Source of the DNA: a virus
Reading direction: 5' to 3' (one strand)
DNA length: 64,000 nt
Virus record (IMG/VR): IMGVR_UViG_3300028800_000005
Span: 1 to 64,000 of that record
A program made the translations under genes and the position numbers. Below are positions 5,641 to 38,442 of the stretch, one piece after another. The number at the start of each line of letters is the position of its first letter. The first letter of the stretch is position 1. Under the pieces are notes generated by a model, which was not told the DNA's origin, did not search any database, and saw only the letters and a program-made list of their open reading frames with translations.

Positions 5641-6537
5641 ATGACGATGCCAGGCCAGCCCTACCAGAATTCGTGGGACGACGGCGAGGGTGACGTCTAC
5701 GACCCGCAGCATAACCGGACGGATAACTTCCTTGCCGCGTGGTACACGCGCGGGTACACCGCCCACCTCGGCGCTAACGGGGAGATGGTCTACACCCCGC
5801 TTATCGCGTCGACCCCGGCGAACACGGACTACGCCTCCCTGCCTTCCGCGATCGGCACCTACACCGAGATCCACCAGCAGTACTTTAACCCGGACCATGA
5901 CCCGCTCGGCGGGTTCCTGACCTTCATGCCGAGCGACAGCTTCACGTACACGGCGGACGGGGTTTCCTACCGGGTCCCCCGGCGGCTGAGCGGGACGGAG
6001 ACGTGGCCTAGCCTGGACTCCGGTGTCTCCCCCTGGGCATTCTCCATGGAGGGCTCAGGCTGCATCTACATCTGGCTGGGCTTCCTTGTCGTTAAGCTGT
6101 TCCCGACAGACATCGATTCGATCGTCACTGACTCCGGGAACCCCCTGACGTACCACGTCATCGAGCATTTCCAGGAGGGGCGGGAATTCGACATTACCGT
6201 TCCGTCCTCGGACACGGCCCTGGACCTGACTGCTGACTGCATGATTGACGGCAGCATGAGGCCTTACCAGTTCGACCCCGTGAACCCGCTTGGGATGCTG
6301 GACGCCCTGGAGCTTCAGTCCGTCACGACTTCTTCCCCGCCCGCGACGGTGCGGACGTACCTGTTCCCGGCGGCTACGAACCTCTGGGTTGCCACGCATA
6401 ACTTCCCGTACCTTCCTTCCGTCACCTGTGTCGATGATACCGGGCACCTTATCGAGGGCACGGTCTCCTATCCGACTTCGACGACCGTCCATGTTGAATG
6501 GGCCTCGTCTGTCTCCGGGAAGATGGAGCTTCGTTAA
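5641..6537 (+). CDS. Tail-fibre-associated structural protein
   Basis: This 298-residue protein has no transmembrane or enzymatic motif. The N-terminal half is rich in Tyr, Asp and Pro. The last 50 residues (about 247-298) carry the pattern W-x3-HNFPYLPSV...D..G..IEG.V.Y-P-T-V-x-V-x-W...GK-L, a small beta domain often found at the C-termini of phage fibre and baseplate proteins. GCGAGGAGTCCTA before the ATG provides a ribosome site. Its stop overlaps the start of the collagen-like fibre (TAATG), so the two are likely made together and may assemble into the same fibre. Confidence 0.6.
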
Positions 6538-9176
6538 TGGCTGAATTCCTGGACACCGTTAACTTCAACCATATTCCGGTAGAGGGGCTTGCCCCGTACG
6601 CGGGAGAGGACCCGCCTGACAGTCCCGCTGGCGGGGAAACGTGGTACCGCCCGTCGACCGGCGACCGGCTTTTCTGGGACGACCACATTAATACCTGGGT
6701 CGTAGGTAACCAGGGCCCGGCCGGAGCTACCGGCCCTACTGGGCCCCAGGGTCCGACTGGCCCGCAAGGTGTCCAGGGGTCCCAGGGGTCGACTGGTCCT
6801 CAGGGTCCTACCGGTGCAACCGGAGCTACCGGCGCTACGGGTCCCCAGGGACCGCAAGGTGACGCTGGCGCTACCGGGCCTGCTGGCCTAGAATGGCGCG
6901 GGGTATGGTCCAGTGCAACCAGCTACGTTCCTGATGACGTGGTGTTCTACAGCGGCTCCGCGTACTTCTGCCTGCTGGCGAATACGAACGTCAACCCGGT
7001 GGGCCACCCGACGACATGGGGGACCCTTGTAGCTGAGGGTGCTACCGGCCCGCAGGGGCCAACTGGCGCGACCGGGGACACTGGTCCTCAGGGTCCTACC
7101 GGGCCTACCGGTGCTACCGGCCCTACCGGGGCACAAGGCATCCAGGGGACCACGGGGGCAACCGGCAGCACTGGCGCTACTGGAGCGACGGGACCCCAGG
7201 GACCGACCGGGGCGACCGGCTCTACCGGCGCTGCGGGTAACACGCTCCTGTACGGCTCTGGAGCGCCCAGTAACGGCACTGGGGTTGACGGGAACTTCTA
7301 CCTGGATGATGTGACCTGGAAGATCTACGGGCCGCGTGCGTCCGGTGTGTGGCCGTCTGGGACGTCTATCATCGGGCCAACGGGAGCCACGGGTGCAACC
7401 GGGGCCACGGGCAGCCAGGGTATCCAGGGAATCCAGGGAGCTACCGGTGCGACCGGGGCACAAGGCATCCAGGGAATTCAGGGTGCGACCGGGGCGACTG
7501 GTGCTACTGGCCCGTCTGGGAATACTGTCGGGTCTGGCTCCGGGTCTCCGTCTAGTGGCACCGGAGTGCAGGGTGACTTCTACATCGACACCACGGCCTG
7601 GAACGTGTACGGCCCGAAGGGCAGCAGCACGTGGCCGTCCGGTGTGTCACTTATCGGGCCTCAGGGATCGACCGGCGCGACCGGTGCAAGCCCGGTCGTA
7701 GCCCCTGTCCTCGGTCGCCCGACTACGATCGGGTTCCTGAACGTGAACGGTACCACCGGAAACTTTGCCGTTACTGAGGCGACGCGCGCAGGCGAAGCCA
7801 TTATCGTTGAAATTCTGACGACCAGCTCCGCGACCATCGGCGTGTCAGATGACTCGGCTAGCGGTGGGAACACCTACACGCAGGTAGCTGCTGTAGCTGC
7901 CGGGACTTCTTACCTGTACGTATTCGTATCGAATACCGTTAACGCCCTGACGACCTCCAACCATATAACAGTTACGTCCTCGGGTAGCCAGGTGTACACC
8001 TTCGTCGCTTACTGGACTCCCGGTTACTGTGGTACAACGGATGCTACGGTGGCTACCGCCTCCGGAACTTCTAACGCCCCGTCCGTTTCCAGCGGGGCAA
8101 TGTCCGTAGCTAACGACCTTGAGTTCCTGTGTTACTTTAACAATGCCGGGACTAACCTGAATGCGGCTCCCTCAGGGTGGACCGCCCTGGGGACGAACTT
8201 TGACGGGACCTTGGTAGCGGCACCCTACTATAAGCAGGCGACTTCGCTTTCCTCCGACACGGCGACGGCGGGCTACGGCAGCTCAATAACCTGGTCGGCC
8301 GCGCTTGTCACACTGAAGCCGTATGTCCCCCGGGTACAGGTTTCGGCAATTAGCCAGGTGGCTGCCGACATACAGCCTTCCCCTGGGACACGGACGTCCG
8401 GAGCGTCCGGATACCTGGCTGATGCCTCACATATTCACGGGCAGCCGTCCGTGTTCGCCCCAACAGGACTTACCGGGGCGACAACCGCTACCCGCTACGT
8501 CGGGGGCACCGCGTCGGGGTCACCGGCATCGGGAACCTTCGTAACGGGTGACTGGATTGTCGACCAGACTGGAGTCAAGTGGGTCTGCACCGCAGGCGGG
8601 ACACCAGGAACATGGCGTTGTGATGCAGGGGTTAACGTAATGACGCACCCGATTACTGGAACCTTCCTGGAGAACGTGCCCTGGGCTCTCCTGTCGAACT
8701 CGATAACATGCGGGTCCGGGAACCTCTACCTATTTCCAGTTCCGCTACTACCAGGAATGGTTGTCACTAACCTGACCATGATTGCTAGCGGTGGCGGGGC
8801 AACATACACGAACCGCTGGGGCGGTATCTTTAAGTGGAATAGCGGGACACCGATGCAGGTCGCGCACACGGCCGACCAGTTGACAACTGCGGTGTCCTCT
8901 GGCACAGTTTACACGATTCCCCTTACCTCCGCTTATACCGTTCCCACTACCGCTGAATCGTACTTCGTCGGCTTCTGCCAGGTAGGGTCGGCCCTTTCTA
9001 CCTGGTTCGGAAGTTCTAGCTGGGGTGGTAACGGGACGAGTCTGGGGGGCGTAACTGCCCTGCAGAAATTCCTTCCAGGGTACAAGAGCAGTGTCACCGG
9101 CCCGGGTACAGACGGATCAACGACAGACGCTATAGGCGCGTACATTACGGGGCAGCCGTACATAGCGCTCAGTTAG
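6537..9176 (+). CDS. Collagen-like tail fibre protein
   Basis: This fibre is 879 residues from the ATG that overlaps the previous stop. A short N-terminal domain is followed by several Gly-X-Y tracts dominated by GAT, GPT and GPQ triplets (residues roughly 45-120, 165-240, 280-330). The tracts are interrupted by compact inserts: a [18 protein letters not shown] segment resembling a chitin-binding CBM5/12 module, and two copies of a GxFY-D-W-x-YGP..W-P-SG-S-IGP module. The C-terminal 500 residues are beta-rich, with a HIHG motif. Collagen triplets form trimeric stalks, so this is probably a trimeric adhesion fibre. A longer reading frame extends upstream but has no supporting ribosome site. 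Confidence 0.85.
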
Positions 9177-16543: not shown

Positions 16544-17545
16544 ATGGCAGGAAGTGCCATCGTCGGGACTAACTTTCTAGCTGCGGCTCCGACCGCCTAT
16601 CAGGGCGCGAACACCCAGCTTACCCCGGCCATTCAGACTTTGTGGTCCAAGGAAATCCTTTTCCAGGCCATGCCCATTCTGCGCTTCGAGCAGTTTGCGA
16701 TCAAGAAGACGGAGCTTAACCAGGCTCCCGGGACCACGATTAACTTCATGCGCTACAATAACCTGCCTGCGGCTTCGCAGCTCGTTGAAGGCGTCCGCAT
16801 GGAGACGACCCCGCTTACCGCGTCGCAGTTCTCGATCACCGTTGCTGAGCACGGCATGGCCGTCGCCACGACCGAGTTCCTCCTGAATGCCTCGTTCGAC
16901 GACGTCATGGCGTCGGCGGCCCGGCTTCTCGGCCGGAACATGGCCCTGTACCTGGACGCGTCCGCGCGGGACACCCTGCTGCAGGCCAGCTCGATCCTGT
17001 ACGGCTACAACAAGCCCGCTCTTGCCGGTAACATCCGGTCGGACCTGGCCCCCTACTCGCACGGCGTGCCCGCTGCGAACCGCGCGGCTCTCTCGGCCGG
17101 TAACTTCGCTCTTACGACCGCCATGGTCAAGGACGCGGTCCTGACCCTGGAGTCGAAGAACACGCCTCACCTTGGCGACGTTTACCCGACCTTCATCCAC
17201 CCGGCGCAGTCGCGGCAGCTTCGTGACGACCCCGAGTTCATCGAGGTCTCGAAGTACTCCCAGCCGGGTAGCTTCATGCTCGGTGAAATTGGCAGGTACA
17301 ACGACGCGGTCTTTATCACCACGACCCAGGTCGCTCCGAACTACGTCTCCGGCAGCTCCGGCGCGCAGTACCACGACGGCATCATGATCGGTGACAACGC
17401 CTTCGGACATGCCATCTCATTGCCGGTCGAACTTCGCGATTCGGGCATCTTGGACTATGGCCGTGAGCACGGCCTGGCCTGGTACGGGATCTGGGGCTTC
17501 GGCCTCATTACCGACCAGAGCGTCGTCATTCTGGAAACCAACTGA
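16544..17545 (+). CDS. Major capsid protein
   Basis: This 333-residue protein follows the scaffold, the normal order for capsid genes. It has an N-arm with QTLWSKEILFQAMPILRFEQFA, an internal AEHGMAVATTEFLLNASFDDV segment, a long helix (RLLGRNMALYLDASARDTLL), and a C-terminal HGLAWYGIWGFGLITD strand set. These resemble the N4 gp56/HK97-fold group of actinophage capsids. CAAGGGAGTGACAC supplies the ribosome site. A strong terminator follows, so abundant capsid mRNA probably ends here. Confidence 0.9.
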   Translation: MAGSAIVGTNFLAAAPTAYQGANTQLTPAIQTLWSKEILFQAMPILRFEQFAIKKTELNQAPGTTINFMRYNNLPAASQLVEGVRMETTPLTASQFSITVAEHGMAVATTEFLLNASFDDVMASAARLLGRNMALYLDASARDTLLQASSILYGYNKPALAGNIRSDLAPYSHGVPAANRAALSAGNFALTTAMVKDAVLTLESKNTPHLGDVYPTFIHPAQSRQLRDDPEFIEVSKYSQPGSFMLGEIGRYNDAVFITTTQVAPNYVSGSSGAQYHDGIMIGDNAFGHAISLPVELRDSGILDYGREHGLAWYGIWGFGLITDQSVVILETN

Positions 17546-18146: not shown

Positions 18147-18686
18147 ATGTCCGGACAGATAGCGCCCCTTACGGCGGACGCCACGCTGAATCTTCTAGCG
18201 GGGACGTTCACCCTGGTGGCACAGTCGACCGCGCCGACGTGGTCCCCCGGAAAGTACTGGTTTAACACAACGACCAGTGCCCTTAACTTCTGGACCGGCA
18301 GCACGTGGGCAGATGTCTCACTCCGGTACCTCGCCCTGCTAACCGCCGACCCGGCAACCTCGGGTCCCGGAGGGGCCCAGGCCGCCGCTATCTCGGACCT
18401 TACCGAGTGCGCCGACTCCGGGTACGCGAGAATTCCCGTGTCACTAACGACAGCCGCCGGGACGGCGACTCCGGTAAGTGTCAGTAACTCGGCGCTGCTA
18501 ACATGGGGTCCCTTTAACGTCGACATGGCCGCACCAGTCGGCTGGGTCGCATTGGTCACGGTTCAGTCCGGCAATGCCGGATTGCTGGTCTACACCTGGC
18601 AAGTGCCCGGGAACATGGTCCAGCAGGTCCAGGCCAGCCAGTATATCCAGTGCCCCGCCGGGGGCCTGGTAATGAGTCAGTCATAA
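18147..18686 (+). CDS. Virion decoration or fibre-type protein
   Basis: This 179-residue protein is rich in Ala, Thr, Gly and Trp. The N-terminus has a YWFNTTTSALNFWTGSTW beta repeat typical of fibre modules. A YLALLTADP-x-SG...DL-x-E...GYARI block (about 61-100) is a common element in phage head-fibre and tail proteins. No catalytic residues are evident. It probably decorates the capsid or tail, and is closely linked to the next gene of similar composition. Confidence 0.6.
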   Translation: MSGQIAPLTADATLNLLAGTFTLVAQSTAPTWSPGKYWFNTTTSALNFWTGSTWADVSLRYLALLTADPATSGPGGAQAAAISDLTECADSGYARIPVSLTTAAGTATPVSVSNSALLTWGPFNVDMAAPVGWVALVTVQSGNAGLLVYTWQVPGNMVQQVQASQYIQCPAGGLVMSQS

Positions 18687-18702: not shown

Positions 18703-19257
18703 TTGACCGCCATCGTCTCCACCGACATCCAGTACTTCCTGTCGGCCCCCGGTGCCTCCGCAGGAAACGCCACCGCCGGGTCTGCCGGTAACTCCTGGGG
18801 TAAGTACCTGTCGACCACCCAGCTTTCCTCAACCCCCCTGGATAACCTCTTCCTGGACCTGACCGGCGCGCAGAACGCCGCGAGCCAGGTCGACTACGCG
18901 TGCGTGTTCATCCTGAACAACACCGCGTCCGGGAACTCGATGCTTAACACCGTCGTCTGGATTCCGAACTCCGGTAACGTTACCGGTGCGACGACTCACG
19001 CGGTCGGCGTCGACCCCGCTGCCGCGAGTGCCAAGGCGTCCTCGTCCGCGCAGGCTGCCGTTATCGCGTCGGCCACTGCCGCCCCGTCCGGCGTCACCTT
19101 CGTCGGCCCGTCCGCGACGAACTCCGGTGGCGTCAACCTCGGAACGATCGCCCCCGGATACGTTCGCGCCGTCTGGATTCGCCGCACCGCGACGAACTCC
19201 GCGCCGCTGAACAACGACGGCTTCACCCTTGAGTGTGACTTCGACACGCAAGGCTAG
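18703..19257 (+). CDS. Probable capsid decoration protein
   Basis: This 184-residue protein starts at TTG, about ten bases after AAAGGA. It is Ala/Ser/Thr/Asn-rich with alternating strands (YACVFILNNTASGNSMLNTVVWIP, PGYVRAVWIRRTATN) and no charged coils or membrane helices. It ends before a strong terminator, which suggests high expression. Composition and location suggest an outer virion protein. Family not recognised. Confidence 0.6.
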   Translation: MTAIVSTDIQYFLSAPGASAGNATAGSAGNSWGKYLSTTQLSSTPLDNLFLDLTGAQNAASQVDYACVFILNNTASGNSMLNTVVWIPNSGNVTGATTHAVGVDPAAASAKASSSAQAAVIASATAAPSGVTFVGPSATNSGGVNLGTIAPGYVRAVWIRRTATNSAPLNNDGFTLECDFDTQG

Positions 19258-19334: not shown

Positions 19335-22300
19335 GTGTCGACCACTGTCACCTGGAGTACCCCCGGGACATACACCTGGACCTGCCCTGCGCACGTCAAC
19401 GCCGGGTCAATCACTGTCTGGGGTTCCGGCGCAGGCTCAGAGCCAGGGAGCGGTACCTACCCTGGTTACAGCGGTGGCGGTGGTCAGTGCACCGGGTACA
19501 GTTCCTATCCTTTGGTACCTGGTCAGAATTACACGATTATCGTCGGAGTTGGCGGTTCTGCCGGTACCCTTACAGCAGAACCCACTAACGGTAACAGCAG
19601 CGTATTTGACTCCGGGGGAGCACCTGGCGGCGTGCACGCCTCCGGTGGTGGTTCAGGAGGATCATTCTTTGTCGGGGGCAGTGGTACCCCTGCCGGACTG
19701 CACACGTTCTTCTATTCCGGTGGTAACGGAAGCGGTGGCGGGTCCTCCGGGTACGGTGGTGCTTCGGGGGGTAACTCCGGGTGCCCGACCGCCGCCGGGA
19801 ACGCCGGTAGCAGTGCGAGTAGCTCTACTGGCGCATCTGCCCCGGCCGCACAAACTGGTGCAGGTACAGGTGGTGCGGGCGGTTACGGTAACGGATTCAC
19901 CGGGGGGGCCCCGGGCGGCGGTGCCGGTTCTGGTGGCGGGCACGGTGGAACGGGCGCTGTGGGTGGTGCCGGGCAGGTCCAGGTAACGTACACGCTGCTT
20001 ACCGGTGTAACCGTAAGCCAGTCCACAACCTGGAATGTCATAGGCCGTGTTACGTCCAGCGAGGCGGTCGCCTGGGACACGGACGCGACTAACTCGTCCA
20101 GCAATGTTGCTACCGCATGGGAATCCTTCCAGGGTGTAGCGGTAAGTAGTGCGGTCGCCTGGAACACGGACGTATCTACCTCGTCCAGTAATGTTTCGGC
20201 AGGGTGGAATACCCGGGTCGCAGCCAGTCGTAGTGTATCGTCCTCCTGGCAGTCAGAGTACGCCACGCCGGTATCCGGCAGCACGTCCTGGAATACCTGC
20301 AAGCTGGTACCAAAGCAAGCGTCGACCGCATGGGAAACCACAACCACAGTTACCACCAGCAAGTCGAGCACCTGGAACACACCCACAACTGAGGCGAGCC
20401 AGAAGCCTGTAGCATGGGCGTCTCTAGTTTTCGTATCGGCGTCTAAGGCCACAGCCTGGAACTCGTACACACCCGTTTCGGTAACGAAGAATAGTACCTG
20501 GTACTCCCGGAGTTCCGTCGCGGTAATCCCGCAAACCACATGGAACGCGGAAACAACTAAGGTAAGTGCCAAGTCCACGACATGGAACGATGCGGCATAC
20601 GCCTCAAGCTCGAAGGTTCTGAACTGGAACGCACGGGCGTCCGTATCCTCCACTAAGGCAGTTAACTGGAACGCGTACCTTCCCGTGTCCAAGTCGGCCG
20701 CTACGTCCTGGGTTACGGCCAAGCAAATCCGCCCGGGAGTTCAGCTTACCTGGAACGCGCTGTTCCCGGGAGGTGTCTCCGCGCAGGCCAGCACATCCTG
20801 GATTGCACGGACGCTTATCAGCCCGACCGCAGGCATTACGTGGAACACGGGCAGCAACCTGACAACCATAAATAAAACGCAGGGCCTGTCCTGGAAGTCG
20901 ACCACAACCATCCCCTCAACGGCTACGACCCTATGGCAGACGGAGATCGCCGGAGGGGTCGTCGTTTCACAGGGCCTGTCCTGGGAGACGATGCTGTCCG
21001 GGTCATCCACGACCAGCTCGTCCTGGAACCAGTTCCAGGGCGGGAACCCGTCTGTTGCCACAAGCTGGAATTCCATCCAGTCCGTAAGTACTACACGGCG
21101 CTCCACCTGGAATTCCATGAGCGCTGTGTCCTGGGGGCATAGCTCGTGCTGGTGGAATGACCTGTCCCCTGTGCCGTCCACGAAGGCAACCTCCTGGAGA
21201 ACCCCCGGGTATGTTACGCGCCGTGCAGGGATCGCATGGACGGACGCTGGAAAGAACTCGGCCACAACTGGTATCCGGTGGAACACTACGGCACCAGTGC
21301 GCGCGTCGAACCCGAACACTATCTGGTGGAGGTCCGACCAGAGCCGGTCAAGCACGAAGCAGGTCTTGTGGTTCAGCAATGGTGAGCTTATTATCCTGGT
21401 ACAGGACGTGAAATGGCTGACCAAGGCAAGCCGGAGCGCGGCACACGCCGTAACCTGGCACGTTCGGACGCCCGTCACCTCCAGCGAGGATTCCGGGTGG
21501 CATGTCTGGATTCCCGGAACTATCTCCAAGCGTTCCCGCTGGCGCAGCCTGGTGCGTGTGTCTCCCACCGCGCGTATCCTCTGGCAGTCCCGGAGAGCCA
21601 CGGTAACGGACGATACCGTTTCCTGGAATGCCCGGCACTCCCAGCAGCGATCGGCGTCCCTGCGTTGGGCTGTGCGCCGCGCAGTGCAGGTTCAGAAGGC
21701 TGCCGCATGGAAGCTGTACACGACCTACTACGTCGTTAGCACTTCCAAGCGGTCGACCTGGAATGATTTCCGCTACGCGCATTCCACTGCCCGCGTAAAG
21801 TGGAACGTCCAGATCACCCCGGTTGCCGTAACCCATTCGGTCAAGTGGAACACGCACCTGGCCGTACATAAGACCGTCCCGGCCGAGTGGCACGTCCAGA
21901 TCATTCCGGTTACGGTCTCTCGTGCGGTAAAGTGGAACACGCGTATTCCGGTAACTATTTCGAAGCCGGTCAAGTGGAACGTCAAGATCATCCCGGTAAC
22001 CGTATCCAAGGGTGTAAAGTGGAATTCACTTGTACCGGTAGCGGTTACTCACGCAACCCAGTGGAACGTTCCCCGGGCTCCAGTTACCACGACCGTACGG
22101 TGGAAGTCCAGGGCACGATTGGCATCCTCTCCGGCCCTGTCCTGGAGGTCCCGGAAGACAATCCATGTCCCGGCACAGATCCGGTGGGACAACCCGGTCA
22201 CCCCGGTGACGGTAACGCGCGCAGTGGCATGGAAGTCACTGGCCAAGCGGTCCTCCTCACGTTCCGAGCGGTGGGGTTCCCTGCGTACTCGGCAGTCTCG

Positions 22301-22577
22301 TAAGTATCTTGCCTGGACGGTACTGGTCTACGGCGCGGGATCGTCTAGCGAATTCGCCTGGGAAACAATGAAGCGCGCGTCGCACTCAGGGAGTTTCCGG
22401 TGGAATGTGCCGACCGGGTCGTCCCATGGTGATCCCGCGTGGCGCGTTATACGCTGGAATGACTTCATGTCCAGTACCCCGGTTACTTCCTCGGCTACAA
22501 TGGAATGGACGACCAAGCGAACTATCCCTGGCGGGATAATGATCTCAGGCTCAGACCGCTGGCAAAGCGCGCAGTAG
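19335..22577 (+). CDS. Glycine-rich and tryptophan tetradecapeptide-repeat protein
   Basis: This 1080-residue protein starts at GTG with AGGAGAG upstream. Residues 1-225 form a Gly-rich domain opening with VTWSTPGTYTWTCP, like the glycine-rich adhesin tips of phage tails. From about 228 to the end there are about 58 consecutive Trp-ended units. By hand count roughly two thirds are exactly 14 residues and most others 13-17. A typical unit is NTRIPVTISKPVKW: W-N/K-S/T at the boundary, a hydrophobic residue near position 6, Ser/Thr around 8-9, and V-x-W at the end. Early units are Ser/Thr-rich, later units Lys/Arg-rich. The regularity suggests a beta-solenoid or stacked-strand fibre. No catalytic motif is visible. 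It lies between decoration and neck genes; four similar units occur in the gene at 44349. Confidence 0.85.
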   Translation: MSTTVTWSTPGTYTWTCPAHVNAGSITVWGSGAGSEPGSGTYPGYSGGGGQCTGYSSYPLVPGQNYTIIVGVGGSAGTLTAEPTNGNSSVFDSGGAPGGVHASGGGSGGSFFVGGSGTPAGLHTFFYSGGNGSGGGSSGYGGASGGNSGCPTAAGNAGSSASSSTGASAPAAQTGAGTGGAGGYGNGFTGGAPGGGAGSGGGHGGTGAVGGAGQVQVTYTLLTGVTVSQSTTWNVIGRVTSSEAVAWDTDATNSSSNVATAWESFQGVAVSSAVAWNTDVSTSSSNVSAGWNTRVAASRSVSSSWQSEYATPVSGSTSWNTCKLVPKQASTAWETTTTVTTSKSSTWNTPTTEASQKPVAWASLVFVSASKATAWNSYTPVSVTKNSTWYSRSSVAVIPQTTWNAETTKVSAKSTTWNDAAYASSSKVLNWNARASVSSTKAVNWNAYLPVSKSAATSWVTAKQIRPGVQLTWNALFPGGVSAQASTSWIARTLISPTAGITWNTGSNLTTINKTQGLSWKSTTTIPSTATTLWQTEIAGGVVVSQGLSWETMLSGSSTTSSSWNQFQGGNPSVATSWNSIQSVSTTRRSTWNSMSAVSWGHSSCWWNDLSPVPSTKATSWRTPGYVTRRAGIAWTDAGKNSATTGIRWNTTAPVRASNPNTIWWRSDQSRSSTKQVLWFSNGELIILVQDVKWLTKASRSAAHAVTWHVRTPVTSSEDSGWHVWIPGTISKRSRWRSLVRVSPTARILWQSRRATVTDDTVSWNARHSQQRSASLRWAVRRAVQVQKAAAWKLYTTYYVVSTSKRSTWNDFRYAHSTARVKWNVQITPVAVTHSVKWNTHLAVHKTVPAEWHVQIIPVTVSRAVKWNTRIPVTISKPVKWNVKIIPVTVSKGVKWNSLVPVAVTHATQWNVPRAPVTTTVRWKSRARLASSPALSWRSRKTIHVPAQIRWDNPVTPVTVTRAVAWKSLAKRSSSRSERWGSLRTRQSRKYLAWTVLVYGAGSSSEFAWETMKRASHSGSFRWNVPTGSSHGDPAWRVIRWNDFMSSTPVTSSATMEWTTKRTIPGGIMISGSDRWQSAQ

Positions 22578-22586
22578 GGTGACCAC

Positions 22587-23402
22587 ATGCAATTGACAGA
22601 CATGCTTTCCCGTATACGGATGGAGATCGGGGACCTTCCTAAGCCTTTCCGTTCCCTGTTCCAGGGCGACGGGCAGACGGTCCTGACTGACCTTATCCAG
22701 CCGAACGTAAACGCTATCGGGTTCTCCATTGACGTCGCGGACTCAATTGGTAACCTGACTACCCTGACTCCAGTTACCGATTACACGGTCGACGAGGACA
22801 ACGGGATCATCACCTTTGCCACTCCCGTTGCCGCCGGGTCGACGGCGATCATCTCCGGAACGAGCAACGGGATGTTCACGGATAATTCGCTGCTGGTCCC
22901 GATCCGGGACGCGGTCATATGGCACTGCCATAACCGGAAGCTCAATGAACGGTACCGTGACCGGCACGGGTTCATCACCTACCGCGAGACTCCTATCGGG
23001 CTGCGCAACCTTCCGCCGGAAGAGGAGCTTCCCCTAGTCGTCCTGGCGACGTATAACACCTACTGGATGCTCGCTGACGACATGGCCCTGGACGTCAATG
23101 TCCAGACCGCCGAGTCAACTAGCATTGACCGGTCCACCAGGTACCGCCAGGTCATGGAGCACATCTCTGAGCTTGACGCCAGGTACAAGTCCCTGACCAG
23201 CCTGCTTAACATCGGGCCTAACCGGATTTACTGCACGGACCTCCGGCGTACCTCGTACACCACCGGCCGCCTGGTCCCGCTGTTCCAGGCCCGGGAATAT
23301 GATGACCACCGCTATCCTGTCCGGTTGATTCCCCCGATCGACAGCTCATACGCGGATAACTCCGGGGTCCCGTCACAGCTTTTTTACGGCGCGGGCCTTT
23401 AA
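22587..23402 (+). CDS. Neck/connector-region protein
   Basis: This 271-residue protein starts with LTDMLSRIRMEIGD, an amphipathic helix often seen at the start of head-tail connector proteins, then has a beta domain with a V-x-DYTVDEDNGIITF strand pair, and a helical second half (LPLVVLATYNTYWMLADDMALD, MEHISELDARYKSLTSLL). It sits between capsid-associated genes and the tail genes, where adaptor proteins are expected. Homology was not tested. Confidence 0.6.
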   Translation: MQLTDMLSRIRMEIGDLPKPFRSLFQGDGQTVLTDLIQPNVNAIGFSIDVADSIGNLTTLTPVTDYTVDEDNGIITFATPVAAGSTAIISGTSNGMFTDNSLLVPIRDAVIWHCHNRKLNERYRDRHGFITYRETPIGLRNLPPEEELPLVVLATYNTYWMLADDMALDVNVQTAESTSIDRSTRYRQVMEHISELDARYKSLTSLLNIGPNRIYCTDLRRTSYTTGRLVPLFQAREYDDHRYPVRLIPPIDSSYADNSGVPSQLFYGAGL

Positions 23403-23429: not shown

Positions 23430-24176
23430 ATGAAAAAGGTCAGGGCTTACTGGTGGCGCGGGAACCCATCCCATCCGGTTAAGAACTTCGGGGACGCGCT
23501 ATCGCCGTACCTGCTCAAGAGGTTCGCGGACATCCGGACAGCATGGTCACCAGTATCCCATTCGAATGTCGTCTCCATCGGGTCACTGCTAGAGCATGTG
23601 CCGCCCTTGTGGGACGGGCATATTCTCGGCACCGGGAAGCTCTACGAGGACTCGCGGCTGCACCTCCACACGAACACGGCCAAGATATGGGCCCTGCGCG
23701 GCCCGCTGACGGCCCGCTGCGTCCCGGGGGACTATGCCCTGGGTGATCCTGGCCTGCTTGCCGATGAACTCGTCACCGTCGATCACAGGGACGTCGGCCT
23801 GGGTATCGTCGCGCACTGGACAGACAGCACCCTGGCTAAGCGGCCAGAGTTCTACAGCCGCGACTTCGAGACCATGGTGATCGACGTCGCCGGGGACCCT
23901 CTCGATGTCGTGCGCTCTATCGGTCGCTGCCAGAAGATCGTCACCAGTTCACTGCACGGCCTGGTCGTAGCGGACGCCTTTGGCATCCCCCGCCGGTACG
24001 AGATGATCCCGAACGCAAGCCGGTACGAGGGGGGCCTGTTCAAGATCAGGGATTACAGCGCCTCAATACAGGCTCCGTTCGAGCCGGGTAAACTGATAGA
24101 AGCATCGCGGTTCTACGTCGAGGACCGCAAGTTTGAGATCTGGGATGCCTACAGGGCAATGGGGGCCGCACTATGA
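23430..24176 (+). CDS. Polysaccharide pyruvyltransferase-like protein
   Basis: This 248-residue protein carries the landmarks of the polysaccharide pyruvyl transferase superfamily (CsaB/WcaK type), which adds ketal pyruvate from phosphoenolpyruvate to sugars. They are NFGDALSPYLL (19-29), SIGSLLEH (49-56), ALRGPLTAR (88-96), the LGDPGLL motif (104-110), and TSSLHGLVVADAFGIP (172-187) with the characteristic Ser-x-His. It is somewhat shorter than many members (about 300 residues or more). The stop overlaps the next start, so it is coupled to a glycosyltransferase. The pair may build or modify a glycan on virion proteins or alter host surface sugars. Its place inside a neck gene cluster is unusual. 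Confidence 0.82.
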   Translation: MKKVRAYWWRGNPSHPVKNFGDALSPYLLKRFADIRTAWSPVSHSNVVSIGSLLEHVPPLWDGHILGTGKLYEDSRLHLHTNTAKIWALRGPLTARCVPGDYALGDPGLLADELVTVDHRDVGLGIVAHWTDSTLAKRPEFYSRDFETMVIDVAGDPLDVVRSIGRCQKIVTSSLHGLVVADAFGIPRRYEMIPNASRYEGGLFKIRDYSASIQAPFEPGKLIEASRFYVEDRKFEIWDAYRAMGAAL

Positions 24177-24970
24177 ACATCCTTCTGAAGCACGGTAAGC
24201 GTGCCAGGCACGGTCGGGGCATCTCACTGCTCATTCCTTTCCGGGCGGAAGAGGACAGCCCGAGGTTCAGGGCGTTCGAATGGACGATACGATACTATGC
24301 CTCCCACCTACCGGGCGCGGAGATCATCGTCGGCACCGATGACAGCCTTCCGTTCAGTAAGACCAAGGCCTTTAACCATGCCAGGGAAAGGGCTACCGGT
24401 GACGTCCTCGTCCTTATCGACGCCGACTGCTATATCGATACCGACGTTCTCCTGCACTGCGCTAAGGAAATCCGGCGCGAGCGGAAGAGGGGCTACCGGC
24501 TATGGTACATTCCCTACCGCAGGTTCTACCGGCTCACCGAAGAGGCAACGCGCCGCGTCCTGAAGTCTAACCCCAGGGACCCGCTGCGGTTCCCGACGCC
24601 TCCGTCCGAGAAGGACACGGAAGCACACTCCTCGGCGTCGCGCGGCCACTGGTGGGGCGCGCTTATCCAGGTAATGCCGAGTGAGGCTTACGACATGGTC
24701 GGCGGCTGTGACCCGAGGTTCCGTGGATGGGGTGGCGAGGACGTCGCCTTCATGCGCGCGGTCGACACCCTGTACTGCAAGCACAAGACGACACGGAACC
24801 AGGTGCTCCACCTGTGGCACCCGATGATCAAGACCGAGTGGAACCTCAGGATGTGGGACGGCCAGCTAAGTGCCAAGGACAATGACCGGCTGGCGAACAG
24901 GTACTACGCGGCATTCGGTGACCCGAAGCGAATGCGGAATCTCGTCGGAGAATACCGGGAGGTTGAATGA
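24173..24970 (+). CDS. GT-A fold glycosyltransferase (family 2-like)
   Basis: This 265-residue enzyme has the GT-A nucleotide-sugar fold: SLLIPFRAEED (18-28), an IIVGTDD strand (51-57), FSKTKAFNHARERATGDVLVLIDAD ending in the metal-binding DAD (83-85), and a C-terminal GGCDPRFRGWGGEDVAF block (near 178-194), as in galactosyl- and N-acetylgalactosaminyltransferase domains. Acceptor and donor cannot be read from sequence. It overlaps the pyruvyltransferase-like gene (ATGA) and the next gene. Together the pair probably makes a modified sugar decoration. Confidence 0.88.
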   Translation: MNILLKHGKRARHGRGISLLIPFRAEEDSPRFRAFEWTIRYYASHLPGAEIIVGTDDSLPFSKTKAFNHARERATGDVLVLIDADCYIDTDVLLHCAKEIRRERKRGYRLWYIPYRRFYRLTEEATRRVLKSNPRDPLRFPTPPSEKDTEAHSSASRGHWWGALIQVMPSEAYDMVGGCDPRFRGWGGEDVAFMRAVDTLYCKHKTTRNQVLHLWHPMIKTEWNLRMWDGQLSAKDNDRLANRYYAAFGDPKRMRNLVGEYREVE

Positions 24971-26552: not shown

Positions 26553-28100
26553 ATGACCATTTACGGACGTCCCGGTGCATACGTAACCGAGATCCTCCCC
26601 CCGCTGACGCCGCTGAACGCCCTGGCTGGCGCGTCACTTCCGGCCCTGGTTGCTAAGCACCCGCGCGGGCCCGTCACTCCTGCCCTCGTCGACTCCTGGG
26701 CGGCGTTCACGCGCCTGTACGGGTCGTACGCGGACAACCCTGGGAGTATCCTCCCGTTCGCCGTTTCCCAGTTCTTCAGTAACACCGGGTCGGCTCTGTA
26801 CGTCCTTCGCGTTGCGAATGATGACGCCGTGGCCGCGACCCTGGACCTCCAGGACATCGCGGACGACAGCCCTGGGGCGCTAGTCGTCACGGCTGCGAAC
26901 CCCGGTGACTGGGGAAACAACCTGTCCATCCAGATCACTACTGGCGGGACTACCGGGGCCTTCACGCTAACGGTGTTCCTGAAGAACACTACCGGCGTTA
27001 ACATCCTCGTCGAGAACTTCCCGGCGCTTAGCATGGACCCGTCGAACCCGCGCTACTGCGTTCCCATCCTGAACGCTCCGAATGCCGGGTCGAAGTACAT
27101 CACGGTCAAGAACCTGATCACCACCTACGTCTCCGGGGAATCCGACCTGGTCGCCACGTCGGGCTCCGTTCCTCTTTCGGGCGGGAACGACGGGACGGAC
27201 ACGGACACGATCGACACGGACGTGGTCACGACGGAGCTGGACACGCTCCCGGACCAGATCCTTGCGGTGAACCTTCCCGGTGTCTCGGACGTGGCCACGC
27301 TGACGAGTATGATCAACTGGGCTGAGCTTCGCGGTGACAAGGTCATCGTCTGTGACGGCCCGGCTCCCGACCCGAACGCGGTCCCCCAGACGGGCTACGC
27401 GGACACGGTCGTGGGAACCTACCTGGAAATGGTGTCTTCGGGGAACCCGGCGCTGCCGGACAGTTCCTACGGCGCGCTGTACGCCCCGTGGCTTCTCGTT
27501 CATGACCCGTCGTCGTCTATCTCCGGCGCTACCCGCTACCTGCCCCCGGGCCCGGCGGTCCTGGCGCAGTACCAGGTCACGGACCTTCAGGTCGGTCCCT
27601 GGCAGACCCCGGCCGGTCAGCGCGCCGTCCTGAACGGCGTCATCGCCCTGGAAGCGAAGTTCTCCGGGGACCAGCTCGCGACTCTTAACCTGGCGAACGT
27701 TAACGCCCTTAAGAGCCTGGCTAACGTGGGCTTCGTCATCTACGGCGGGCGCACTCTGGCGTCCGGGTACCCGGACATGTACCTTTCCGTCCGGCGGCAG
27801 CTAATGTCCATCGAGCATGACCTGCGCGACCTGTTCGGTTTCGCTATCTTCGAGCCGAACGGCCCGCAGCTCTGGCAGCAGATCACCAGCATCGGGGCGA
27901 ACTACCTTAACCAGCAGTTCCAGATGCACGCTCTCGGCGGGAACACCCCGACGCAGGCCTTCAGCATCGTGTGCGATTCTACAAATAACCCGCCCGCCCG
28001 AGCGCAGTCCGGGTTGTGCACGGTCGATGTCGGCGTGGCTCTCATGAGCCCGGCGGAATTCCTCCAGCTTAACATCACGCTGACCACAGGCAGTGCCTGA
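26553..28100 (+). CDS. Contractile tail sheath protein
   Basis: This 515-residue protein begins with YGRPGAYVTE (3-12), the hallmark sheath N-terminus, followed by PLTPLNALAGASLPALVAKHPRGPV and a GPVTPALVDSWAAFTRLYGSY block. The C-terminal third has GYPDMYLSVRRQLMSIEHDLRDLFGFAIFEPN and LWQQITSIGANYLNQQ, the conserved contraction domain. It polymerises around the tail tube and contracts at infection. With the tube gene next, this fixes the phage as a myovirus. Confidence 0.95.
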   Translation: MTIYGRPGAYVTEILPPLTPLNALAGASLPALVAKHPRGPVTPALVDSWAAFTRLYGSYADNPGSILPFAVSQFFSNTGSALYVLRVANDDAVAATLDLQDIADDSPGALVVTAANPGDWGNNLSIQITTGGTTGAFTLTVFLKNTTGVNILVENFPALSMDPSNPRYCVPILNAPNAGSKYITVKNLITTYVSGESDLVATSGSVPLSGGNDGTDTDTIDTDVVTTELDTLPDQILAVNLPGVSDVATLTSMINWAELRGDKVIVCDGPAPDPNAVPQTGYADTVVGTYLEMVSSGNPALPDSSYGALYAPWLLVHDPSSSISGATRYLPPGPAVLAQYQVTDLQVGPWQTPAGQRAVLNGVIALEAKFSGDQLATLNLANVNALKSLANVGFVIYGGRTLASGYPDMYLSVRRQLMSIEHDLRDLFGFAIFEPNGPQLWQQITSIGANYLNQQFQMHALGGNTPTQAFSIVCDSTNNPPARAQSGLCTVDVGVALMSPAEFLQLNITLTTGSA

Positions 28101-34629: not shown

Positions 34630-35798
34630 CTTCCACACCCGTCGGCCCAGTCATATTCTCGGCTACAGTTAACGGCGTGAAGTCCCAGACGGCTCCGCTG
34701 GACTTTGAGGTGCAGCAGGAGTGGGGAAAGCACGACCTTTTCTTCGCGCGCGTCGTGGTAAAGAAGGGGCTGACGTACACTAAGCTGCTGAAGTCCTGGC
34801 CAGAGGGTGCCGCCGTTGACATCACCTGGGGACGTTACCCGACATCAGTACAGCACTGGTACGGGTACATAAACCACCATCAGATCAACACCGAAGATGA
34901 CGCGAACGGGCAGAACATCCAGATCACGTACGTCTTTATCGGAACCAGTGCGAAGATGAACGGGGACAAGAACCGGACCTGGAAAAGCTACACGCCAACG
35001 GCCATGGCGAGTACCATTGCCCGGGAGAACTCGCTGCGGTGTGTCGTCACGTCGACCGACTGGACACTGCCGTACGAGGTTCAGGCCCACGAGTCAGACT
35101 TTCAGTTCCTTAACCGGATGGCCGACAAGGTCGGAATGCGTTTCTGGGTTTCCGGAGGGACGCTGTACTTTATTGACCCTATCGTCCTCCTGTCCGGTGC
35201 GAGCAACTACTTCATCCCGCAGTACACGATTAACCGTGCGGCGTACCTCCAGGACACCGCACGGAACTTCGAGCTGATGCAGGGTTCTTCTATTCCCGGG
35301 GCCTTCAAGATGTCCCGCACGGTCTACGGCCTGGACCCGGACACCGGTCAGGTGATCCAGGCGACCGCTGACGGGGACACGTATGACGACGAGATCGTGA
35401 ACATTCACCGGAACGTGACTTCAACGCAGGAAGCGAAGCAGATCCAGAACGCGGCCCAGGCCCTAAGCCAGTTCTGGCGCACCGGCACGGTAGAGGTATT
35501 CGGGTACAGCCTGCTGTATCCCGGGAAGATGATCAAAATAGATGGTGCGGTCATGCCCGATGACACGGCCGGTAACTGGATCGTCATGAAGGTAAACCAC
35601 ATCCTGAAGATGTCCGGCAGCCCGGACCCGGTGAATGACAAGTACGTCAGCCGCCTTACTATCTCGTCAAACGTGAGCGCGACGATTCCCTTTGTCAAGG
35701 GGGTCCACAAGGTCACGCCAGAGATCATTCCGTGCAACCTGAGTGGCGGGAAGTGGCAGGCACAGCAGCTTAACACGGTCATCGAGGGGGTTGTGTAA
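34626..35798 (+). CDS. Baseplate hub protein (gpD / late control D-like)
   Basis: This 390-residue protein starts at GTG. The first half has a [19 protein letters not shown] style barrel and a [13 protein letters not shown] helix. Next comes [30 protein letters not shown] (about 140-170), the diagnostic block of P2 gpD/VgrG-type hub proteins. The second half has the matching barrel and a [21 protein letters not shown] strand set. It would form the trimeric hub joining tube to spike, consistent with the spike gene that follows. Confidence 0.85.
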
Positions 35799-35799
35799 G

Positions 35800-38442
35800 A
35801 TGGCACCACCGGCCAGGCAGTGGTTCGGTACGTACACCGCGAGTGTTGCTAACGCGCGCAAGGATAATTACCTTGAGCTGAACATCCCCCAGGTTCTTGG
35901 GAAGTCCATTTCGAACTGGGCGGCCCCGGTTGTGTCCTGGCCTGGGCCGCCGCTTACCCCGGGCACGGTTGTCTTCGCGGCGTTCCTTGGCGGGGACATT
36001 AACCAGCCAGTGTGGGCACCTAAGGCCCGCATACTGCAGGGTATTTACCCAGGGGACCCGACGCTAGTCCTCCACGGGGACGGCACCTGGGGAGCCGTGG
36101 TCTCTTCAAGTGGGCAGGTTCTCCCGACTAGTGCCATGGACATGAACGGGCAGATCATTACTAACGCCGCCGATGGCGTTGCTAATACTGACGTGGCTAC
36201 GGTGGAGCAGGTAAACCAGGTCGAATCCGACGTGATGACCTACCTGCAAAGCATCTCGTCTGAACTAGGCGGGGGATCAACCGGCCCCGTAGGGCCAGCC
36301 GGACCAACCGGACCCGCCGGACCTCAGGGGCCCGTGGGAGCCACAGGGTCTACCGGCCCGGCCGGGCCCACTGGTCCGACAGGGGCAACCGGAGCTACGG
36401 GACCGGCGGGCCCTACGGGGCCGACCGGGGCGACCGGACCTACCGGGCCGCAACCCCCGCTGAACACCACGGCCGTTAATATACAGGCCCTTGGAACCCA
36501 GGCGGCCGGAACGTTTACCACGGCAGCGGCGGCCGACCACGTGCACCCCACGACAGGCCTGGCTACTGCCGCGTCTATTTCCGCAGCGGCCGGTGCGGGA
36601 GATTCCACGCTAGCCCTCACGCCTGCCGGGTACTGGCGTCTCGGGGACGTTACGGCTGGCTCCTGCCCGGACTCCTCTGGGAATAACAACCCGGCCGTAG
36701 TGACAGGGACGATCGCGCCGACGCAGGGTTTTCCGGGGACTAAGGCCGCGTATTTCGTTAACTCTACCGCGTACGCCACAACCGCAGCCTTCACGTTCGC
36801 CGTTCCTTCCGCATGGTCCCTGGAAGTCTGGTTCAATACCTCAGCGCTGGGTAACAATGTCGCACTGATGTCGGGCGGGTCGTTCGCCCAGAACAGTCAC
36901 CAGGGATTCAACCTGATCCTGTTCTCGGACAACAACATTTACTTTGACTGGGGTAACGGGACCGTACGGAACAGGGTGAACACGACCACGGCTCCGGTTA
37001 CCGCTAACACCTGGCACCATGTGGTCGGCACGTACGACGGAACGACATCGAAACTTTACCTGGACGGAAGCCTGGTCGCGAGCGGATCAGCCACCGGCCC
37101 GATGAGCTGGCCAACGCCGCAGGTTGCCTTCGCGCAGGTCTACACGGGCATCGGCGGAACGCCGCACCCGCTATCGATTGAGCGCGGGGCAATTTTCTCC
37201 TCCGTGCTGACGTCTGTGACCGTGGCGAACAGGTACAACACGGCCCTGTTCAGCTCGGCCACCGCTGGCCCGACAGTTATCAATGCGGCTGACTACAACA
37301 GCATTCAGGCCGCACTTGATGCGGCGGCAAATGGTTCTAATACCTCACCGACCGTGTACATACCGTCAGACCGGCTCTGGCAGGCTAGCGCGGCGTTTAC
37401 TTACACGTCTGGTAAGCCGCTGCACATCACGGGTGACATCAGTGGTGCTGCCACGAATCACGGGACGACAATTCAGTGCGCCGCAGGCGGGAACTATACC
37501 CTGTTCTCTGCCCCGAACTCACCGAACACGTGCATCGAGCACCTGACCCTTGCGACTCTGGGTACCATGGGATCGTCCTCGACAGCCATTAACCTGGGCG
37601 CGTACTCGACTGTAAACGACATAACCATTACCGGTCCAAGCTCCAGCCAGTGTTTCTACACCGGCATTGAGATTACCGGTAACGTATACATGACCAACTG
37701 CTGGATTAACGCCGTCCAGACAGCGGTGTACCTTTACGAGGGTGGCGGGGGAGTCATCATGGGCACCTCGACCTTCACGGTTCCCGGAGGAGGGTCGGCT
37801 GGTATCTGGGCGAACGGCGCTACTGTCCGCATGACAAACTGCTTCACCACCGGAGGTGACCGGGGCATCTACGCCACGGCCGGTGAATTCATGTTCATCA
37901 ACAACGTGGAGATAAACAACTGCTGGGTCGCTGGCCTGGAAGTCGCGCAGCTAGACGGGCACCCCCCGGGCTTCATCGGGCAGGTCTGGGCGAACCAGCT
38001 ATGGATGACGGGCGGGGAGTCCCCGCTGGCGCACGGGGTTATCTTCAACACGGGCGGCGGGACCCTGCAGTTGACGCAGGCGAACATCGGCGGGTTCTCG
38101 GGTAACGGGGTGTGGCTGCGGAAGGGATTCGGCTTCGGAATCTACGAGTCGGTCTTCGGGGAAAACGGATTCTATGCCGCGAACTCCTATGACGACATCC
38201 ACATCGAGACCATTGCCGACCAGATACAGATCAACAACAACCGGTTTAACTGTGACCCGTACAACCAGCTCATGAGCCCGGCAGTACGCTCAAGTGTGTA
38301 CGTCCCGTCCGGAGCTATGCCGAACCTTATCTGCACCGGGAACATCTGGCCAGCAGCAGGATACGGGACGGCACCGGTTGTAAACCCAGACAGTTTGGGT
38401 ATCTTTGCGAACAACCTAGCCACTACGACACCAACGCACTGA
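35800..38442 (+). CDS. Multidomain central spike/adhesin: OB + collagen-like + LamG + beta-helix
   Basis: This is 880 residues long from the ATG at 35800. Residues 1-85 look like a gp5/gpV-type OB domain ([44 protein letters not shown]). A short coil (about 120-155) leads to collagen-like GPT/GAT triplets (about 156-217), a LamG-type jelly roll (about 272-480, [31 protein letters not shown]), and a right-handed beta-helix (about 490-860, with [16 protein letters not shown] and many N/G rungs). Such mixing of a baseplate spike head with host-binding domains in one chain is unusual. It follows the hub gene, so the OB part probably docks there. Confidence 0.85.

Follow-up and report, generated by a model that had tools for sequence, protein, structure and literature searches.

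The window, a 64,000-nt stretch of a 112 kb record of a soil virus of bacteria, encodes a 1080-residue protein built mainly of 14-residue units with an aromatic anchor, and its gene adjoins a small gene of the PHROG 13135 family. The same repeat is nearly always found beside a PHROG 13135 gene in other phages, an arrangement suggestive of a hitherto overlooked virion module with two parts that serves in attachment or decoration. As judged from the position of the genes, the array and its partner probably form a fibre close to the neck that decorates the particle or helps it attach. Two uncharacterised protein clusters, PHROG 6079 and PHROG 13135, are joined in one widespread module that passes from phage to phage across unrelated capsids, and both gain a testable role. 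The pairing appears to be new. Coordinates of the relevant features are collected in Table 1.

Table 1. The array gene, its parts and neighbouring genes in the window (positions in nt).
Feature	Position	Strand	Evidence and remarks
Major capsid protein	16544..17545	+	phrog_1357, E 2e-58
179 aa head/fibre-type gene	18147..18686	+	Weak matches: PF23140 "Podophage GP4 fiber I", phrog_240 "head protein"
Partner gene, 184 aa, PHROG 13135	18703..19257	+	E 5.1e-15; co-occurrence with arrays
Array protein gene, 1080 aa	19335..22577	+	GTG start, AGGAGAG upstream; identical copy (ORF at 100% identity) in the 21 kb IMG/VR contig L002/L082
N-terminal glycine-rich domain, residues 9-219	19359..19991	+	Pfam PF21722 Gly_rich_2, E 1.4e-7
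Aromatic 14-residue array, residues 233-1080, ~58 units	20031..22574	+	phrog_6079, E 6.3e-9; fit to class A unit profile
Tandem duplication of double unit, 87 nt (15+14 residues)	21879..22040	+	TRF score 189, 75% matches
271 aa conserved gene downstream of array slot	22587..23402	+	Place between capsid genes and sheath kept in relatives
Tail sheath	26553..28100	+	phrog_23, E 7e-46

The array protein contains 67 Trp residues. Residues 225–1080 hold 64 of them, and 39 Trp–Trp spacings in this part are exactly 14, whereas 20,000 shuffled sequences averaged 1.7 such spacings and never exceeded 9. The exact spacings include an unbroken run of 13, and the other spacings are mostly 13–18. From W233 to W1036 the chain is continuous, with 56 intervals of 13–18 residues, so the count of about 58 Trp-anchored units, mostly 14 residues long, given in the preliminary description is a fair one, and the repeat itself is confirmed by the shuffling. 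In residues 823–966 the spacing is mostly 15 and 14 by turns, forming a 29-residue double unit. The drift from Ser/Thr-rich to Lys/Arg-rich units reported earlier is real, if modest in size: along the chain, net charge has a Spearman correlation of 0.40 and Ser/Thr content one of –0.41. DNA binding, raised by the basic C-terminal half, was set aside, as nothing else supports it. The array gene has GC3 of 0.68 versus 0.77–0.85 in its neighbours and hence may be evolving fast. The N-terminal domain scores 32.2 bits with Gly_rich_2, above the curated cut-off of 24.3; this Pfam family covers the N-terminal fifth of the protein only, and the array is outside its scope.

The capsid protein is 66–67% identical to those of Streptomyces phages BRock, LuckySocke, GiJojo, Alone3, and pSt2308, which, together with the encoded tail sheath, points to a contractile-tailed phage. 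The gene order is portal, scaffold-position gene, capsid, three small genes, array gene, 271-aa gene, two sugar-transfer genes, further small genes, and sheath. The 179-aa gene matches PF23140 with 25.7 bits, below the Pfam cut-off of 27, and phrog_240 with E 0.0015. The 271-aa gene, judged by position only, probably belongs to the head–tail connector region. The slot of the array gene is variable: in most relatives, isolates included, the space from the 179-aa gene to the 271-aa gene contains no array gene; in others (L006, L011, L020, L021) it holds divergent genes for aromatic arrays, in some cases preceded by a gene of fibre type. In two array proteins of this lineage the Trp units are preceded by other short repeats, of the DTGSG type in L006 (13830–16643) and of the TDxVPVTDS type, behind a glycine-rich domain, in L021 (12793–15156).

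The two sugar-transfer genes, lying between head–neck genes, encode a polysaccharide pyruvyl transferase-like protein (23430–24176, PF04230) and a family 2 glycosyltransferase (24173–24970, PF10111, phrog_1721), whose targets might be proteins of the virion or sugars of the host; in one relative (L005) such a pair, with about 50% identity, is located upstream of the capsid gene. The window also encodes two more fibre-type proteins with collagen-like repeats (6498–9176 and 35743–38442), one with a weak match to a carbohydrate-binding module (CBM_5_12) and the other with a Laminin_G_3 lectin domain.

Further arrays were sought in viral contigs with a DNA pattern of three Trp-Asn codons placed 42 nt apart, and many were recovered, forming two classes. 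The consensus of class A is approximately WNVxxxVxx[ST]Kxx[ST], and that of class B is WNSVYTxVxxTSAN. None of 2000 column permutations fitted the class A profile as well as the window units did, with matches beyond Trp at positions 6 (V/I/A), 9 (S/T), 10 (K/A), and 12 (hydrophobic). The fit of the window units to the class B profile is at chance level, with 1159 of 2000 permutations as good. Class B repeats (e.g., L196, L181) have the period of 14 and Trp-Asn in common with the window array and differ from it in the position profile. They were found in L181, L196, L187, L151, L123, and L092, with the open frame reaching 3192 aa, and their period could correspond to two heptads of a coiled coil. 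In multi-copy alignments composed of non-overlapping unit sets (A3, A5) the Trp columns were preserved. A tblastn search of phage records with the whole protein or a synthetic consensus yielded no match, for which low-complexity filtering and divergence are the probable reasons. A scan of bacterial genomes produced mostly unrelated or antisense tandem repeats, the only clear case being a Motiliproteus prophage (L273).

The repeat had been described as matching no named phage repeat. Indeed, the array has no entry in Pfam or NCBIfam and no PDB profile match; still, the unnamed PHROG 6079 profile matches it in three stretches, and this profile also matches almost every class A protein that was tested, together with the gp15 protein of Vibrio phage KVP40 (tail terminator / sheath stabiliser). 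We found no description of the repeat in the openly accessible literature; it is clustered in PHROG yet unnamed and, as far as that literature goes, undescribed. Many unrelated phages carry it, and the preliminary description overlooked the partner gene adjoining the array gene. Elsewhere, the array follows gp15, a LamG-like region (assigned by eye), or a metallophosphoesterase, and since these N-terminal regions are unrelated, its role may differ among phages. The metallophosphoesterase domain (PF00149) is fused ahead of a class A array in L094 (6060–8714), possibly an enzyme borne on the same type of stalk.

The partner gene ends 77 nt upstream of the array gene on the same strand. Its family, of about 180 residues, has no Pfam relative and no PDB profile match. 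PHROG 13135 is present in 24 of 26 class A array records and in none of 26 controls (Fisher test, p 1.5e-12), the controls being class B or chance matches from the same scan; class A records were chosen without regard to PHROG 13135. Both misses (G018, G021) are fragments with the array at the contig end, and therefore do not count against the pairing. The two genes are on the same strand in all 20 measurable cases, within 4 kb in 19 of these 20, and often touch. The pair is observed with several capsid families: phrog_1357 and PF25209 in the window, PF05065 in L189, L229, and the Motiliproteus prophage, and the T4-like capsid in KVP40. In the capsid lineage of the window, 15 out of 16 records lack PHROG 13135, and no arrays were found among those of them that were scanned.

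A prediction following from the pairing has been borne out, as two isolates with PHROG 13135 and without a Trp array turned out to have Tyr arrays of period 14 adjoining the partner: gp15 of EniLVp02 (FDYSIRLPVNDAVS etc.) and a 160-aa protein of Alteromonas podophage PT15-A5. The conserved feature is hence an aromatic residue per 14 residues, not Trp as such, and Trp is dispensable, as Tyr or Phe can substitute (the Tyr arrays; L020). One real exception is a partial 55 kb record (L012), in which the partner is present and a search for the array found none. PHROG 13135 copies in unrelated phages are 25–48% identical to the window copy, with six invariant columns. A region of one member (L139) matches the "head decoration" family phrog_20658. 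Moreover, 7 of 17 members weakly match phrog_6128, a family of 1200 positions (best E 3.5e-7); the match falls at the start of phrog_6128, whose members are possibly long fibres with the PHROG 13135 domain as the N-terminus.

Gene neighbourhoods agree on the region. In the window the pair comes after the capsid genes and before those for the neck and sheath; in KVP40, gp15 itself contains the array and stands beside gp13/gp14; in PT15-A5 the pair is one gene away from the portal; and in the four records where PF04860 was found the portal is within approximately 3.5 kb of the pair. The module thus sits in the head–portal–neck neighbourhood, which suggests a corresponding location in the particle. 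This neighbourhood, together with the phrog_20658 match, favours head–neck decoration over a baseplate fibre; for none of the family members did we find proteomics or microscopy of virions. The decoration-fibre role proposed in the preliminary description is consistent with the gene position, while for the contacts suggested there, with DNA, membrane, or glycans, we see no sign.

Each unit is predicted to be one amphipathic beta-strand. For window residues 804–987, the AlphaFold model has low confidence (pLDDT 57, pTM 0.52) and shows approximately one strand for each unit. A regular relative, L156, modelled with 12 exact units and a 25-row alignment, reaches pLDDT 84 and pTM 0.76, with strands mostly of 9–11 residues and turns of about three residues; the alignments for both proteins use repeat registers, so the confidence may be inflated, and for two of five models the score was about 60. 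Hydrophobicity alternates along the strand, with the hydrophobic positions –2, 2, and 6 on the side of the aromatic residue (permutation p 0.005 for the window and 0.008 for class A). A strand with such a face should have it covered, either by another array chain or by the partner. The expectation of an ordered beta protein, not a loose chain, is thus supported by the prediction of one strand per unit, though for the window protein itself the confidence is low. Among solved or viral folds, Foldseek gave no significant match for the array models; the top matches include solenoid proteins, none of them significant, and a beta-solenoid, with parallel strands stacked in coils, and a hairpin meander are both candidate folds.

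Taken together, these observations best support the following scheme, which we consider moderately probable. The array gene would encode a virion surface protein with the N-terminal glycine-rich domain and a long stalk of about 58 units, each a short amphipathic beta-strand with an aromatic anchor followed by a tight turn. The array would be the variable half of a two-gene module, and the small PHROG 13135 protein the constant half. The module would be built into the head–neck part of the particle and decorate it, most likely as long fibres aiding attachment. The two proteins may bind each other through the repeated hydrophobic face of the strands, though genetic linkage is no proof of binding. 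A more specific variant, which we put forward tentatively and consider rather doubtful, is a molecular ladder, where each aromatic strand docks one PHROG 13135 copy by strand addition to its sheet. This would yield a beads-on-a-string decoration filament with the length set by the number of repeats, and phages of the T4-like, N4-like, and other types would mount this device on carrier proteins that differ among them.

The strongest competitor to the two-part module is a self-contained receptor-binding fibre, an explanation of appreciable but lesser probability. Here a single array chain, or a trimer of such chains, would form a rigid beta stalk that displays the glycine-rich domain to the host, and PHROG 13135 would be only an anchor or collar. 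The single-chain fold predicted for L156 agrees with that, the phrog_6128 matches would fit an anchor domain, and fibre-type genes are swapped in the array slot of relatives. However, the KVP40 array is itself fused to a neck protein and should not require a separate anchor, yet PHROG 13135 is retained next to it. It is unlikely that PHROG 13135 is instead an assembly chaperone, required for folding of the repeat stalk but not retained in the mature virion: the tight same-strand pairing across phages would be explained, as fibre chaperones also show it, but good conservation of the partner contrasts with the free divergence of array sequences, and the head decoration region of the L139 member does not suit a chaperone. 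Still less probable is that 14-residue repeats arose several times by convergence on a simple amphipathic strand and do not form one family. Short simple units can converge, and class B has the same period while being clearly different and lacking the partner; nevertheless, the class A profile, surpassing all permutations, has more than Trp in common with the window units, one PHROG matches class A arrays across phages, and almost every one of these has a partner from that single family. It is highly improbable that the array is an ordinary low-complexity linker lacking any specific fold or partner, since the low AlphaFold confidence on the window segment and the lower GC3 are outweighed by the strict period over 850 residues, the alternating hydrophobic face, the order predicted for the regular relative, and the association with the partner.

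Repeat-built phage fibres are a known kind of structure, and the two-part module may be compared with several described systems. Triple beta-spiral shafts, known from the adenovirus fibre, have about 15 residues per repeat and are beta-rich and fibrous, with a conserved Gly/Pro turn. The array is similar in the nearly equal repeat length, the predicted beta-richness, and the probable fibrous character; the conserved Gly/Pro column is absent from both the window and class A units. Class B repeats differ also in the partner, PHROG 13135 being absent from all controls that include them. PHROG 6079 ("tail protein") is common to the window array, most class A arrays tested, and KVP40 gp15; it is an automatic cluster, for which the library used describes no repeat, structure, or mechanism, and the window protein adds the Gly_rich_2 domain to it.

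A further parallel is found in Vibrio phages KVP40, F86, 1.081.O, and D479, where gp15 has a C-terminal aromatic 14-residue extension and is directly followed by the PHROG 13135 gene. Vibrio phage nt-1 also has the partner gene, at about 135434–135979 of NC_021529. In KVP40 gp15, residues 1–222 (approximately the first 221) match T4 gp15 (PDB 3j2m, E 6e-53), and about 14 aromatic 14-residue units are located beyond this part. In 1.081.O (MG592456, L316 3656–3849), 42-nt tandem repeats of the gp15 array are publicly annotated as "CRISPR spacers", apparently a spurious CRISPR assignment within coding DNA. The Vibrio proteins and the window protein differ in the N-terminal part, T4-like in the former and glycine-rich in the latter. 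The two-part module would account for the length of the C-terminal part that gp15 has gained in phages of the KVP40 type, and these phages can be cultured and are amenable to cryo-EM and gene deletion.
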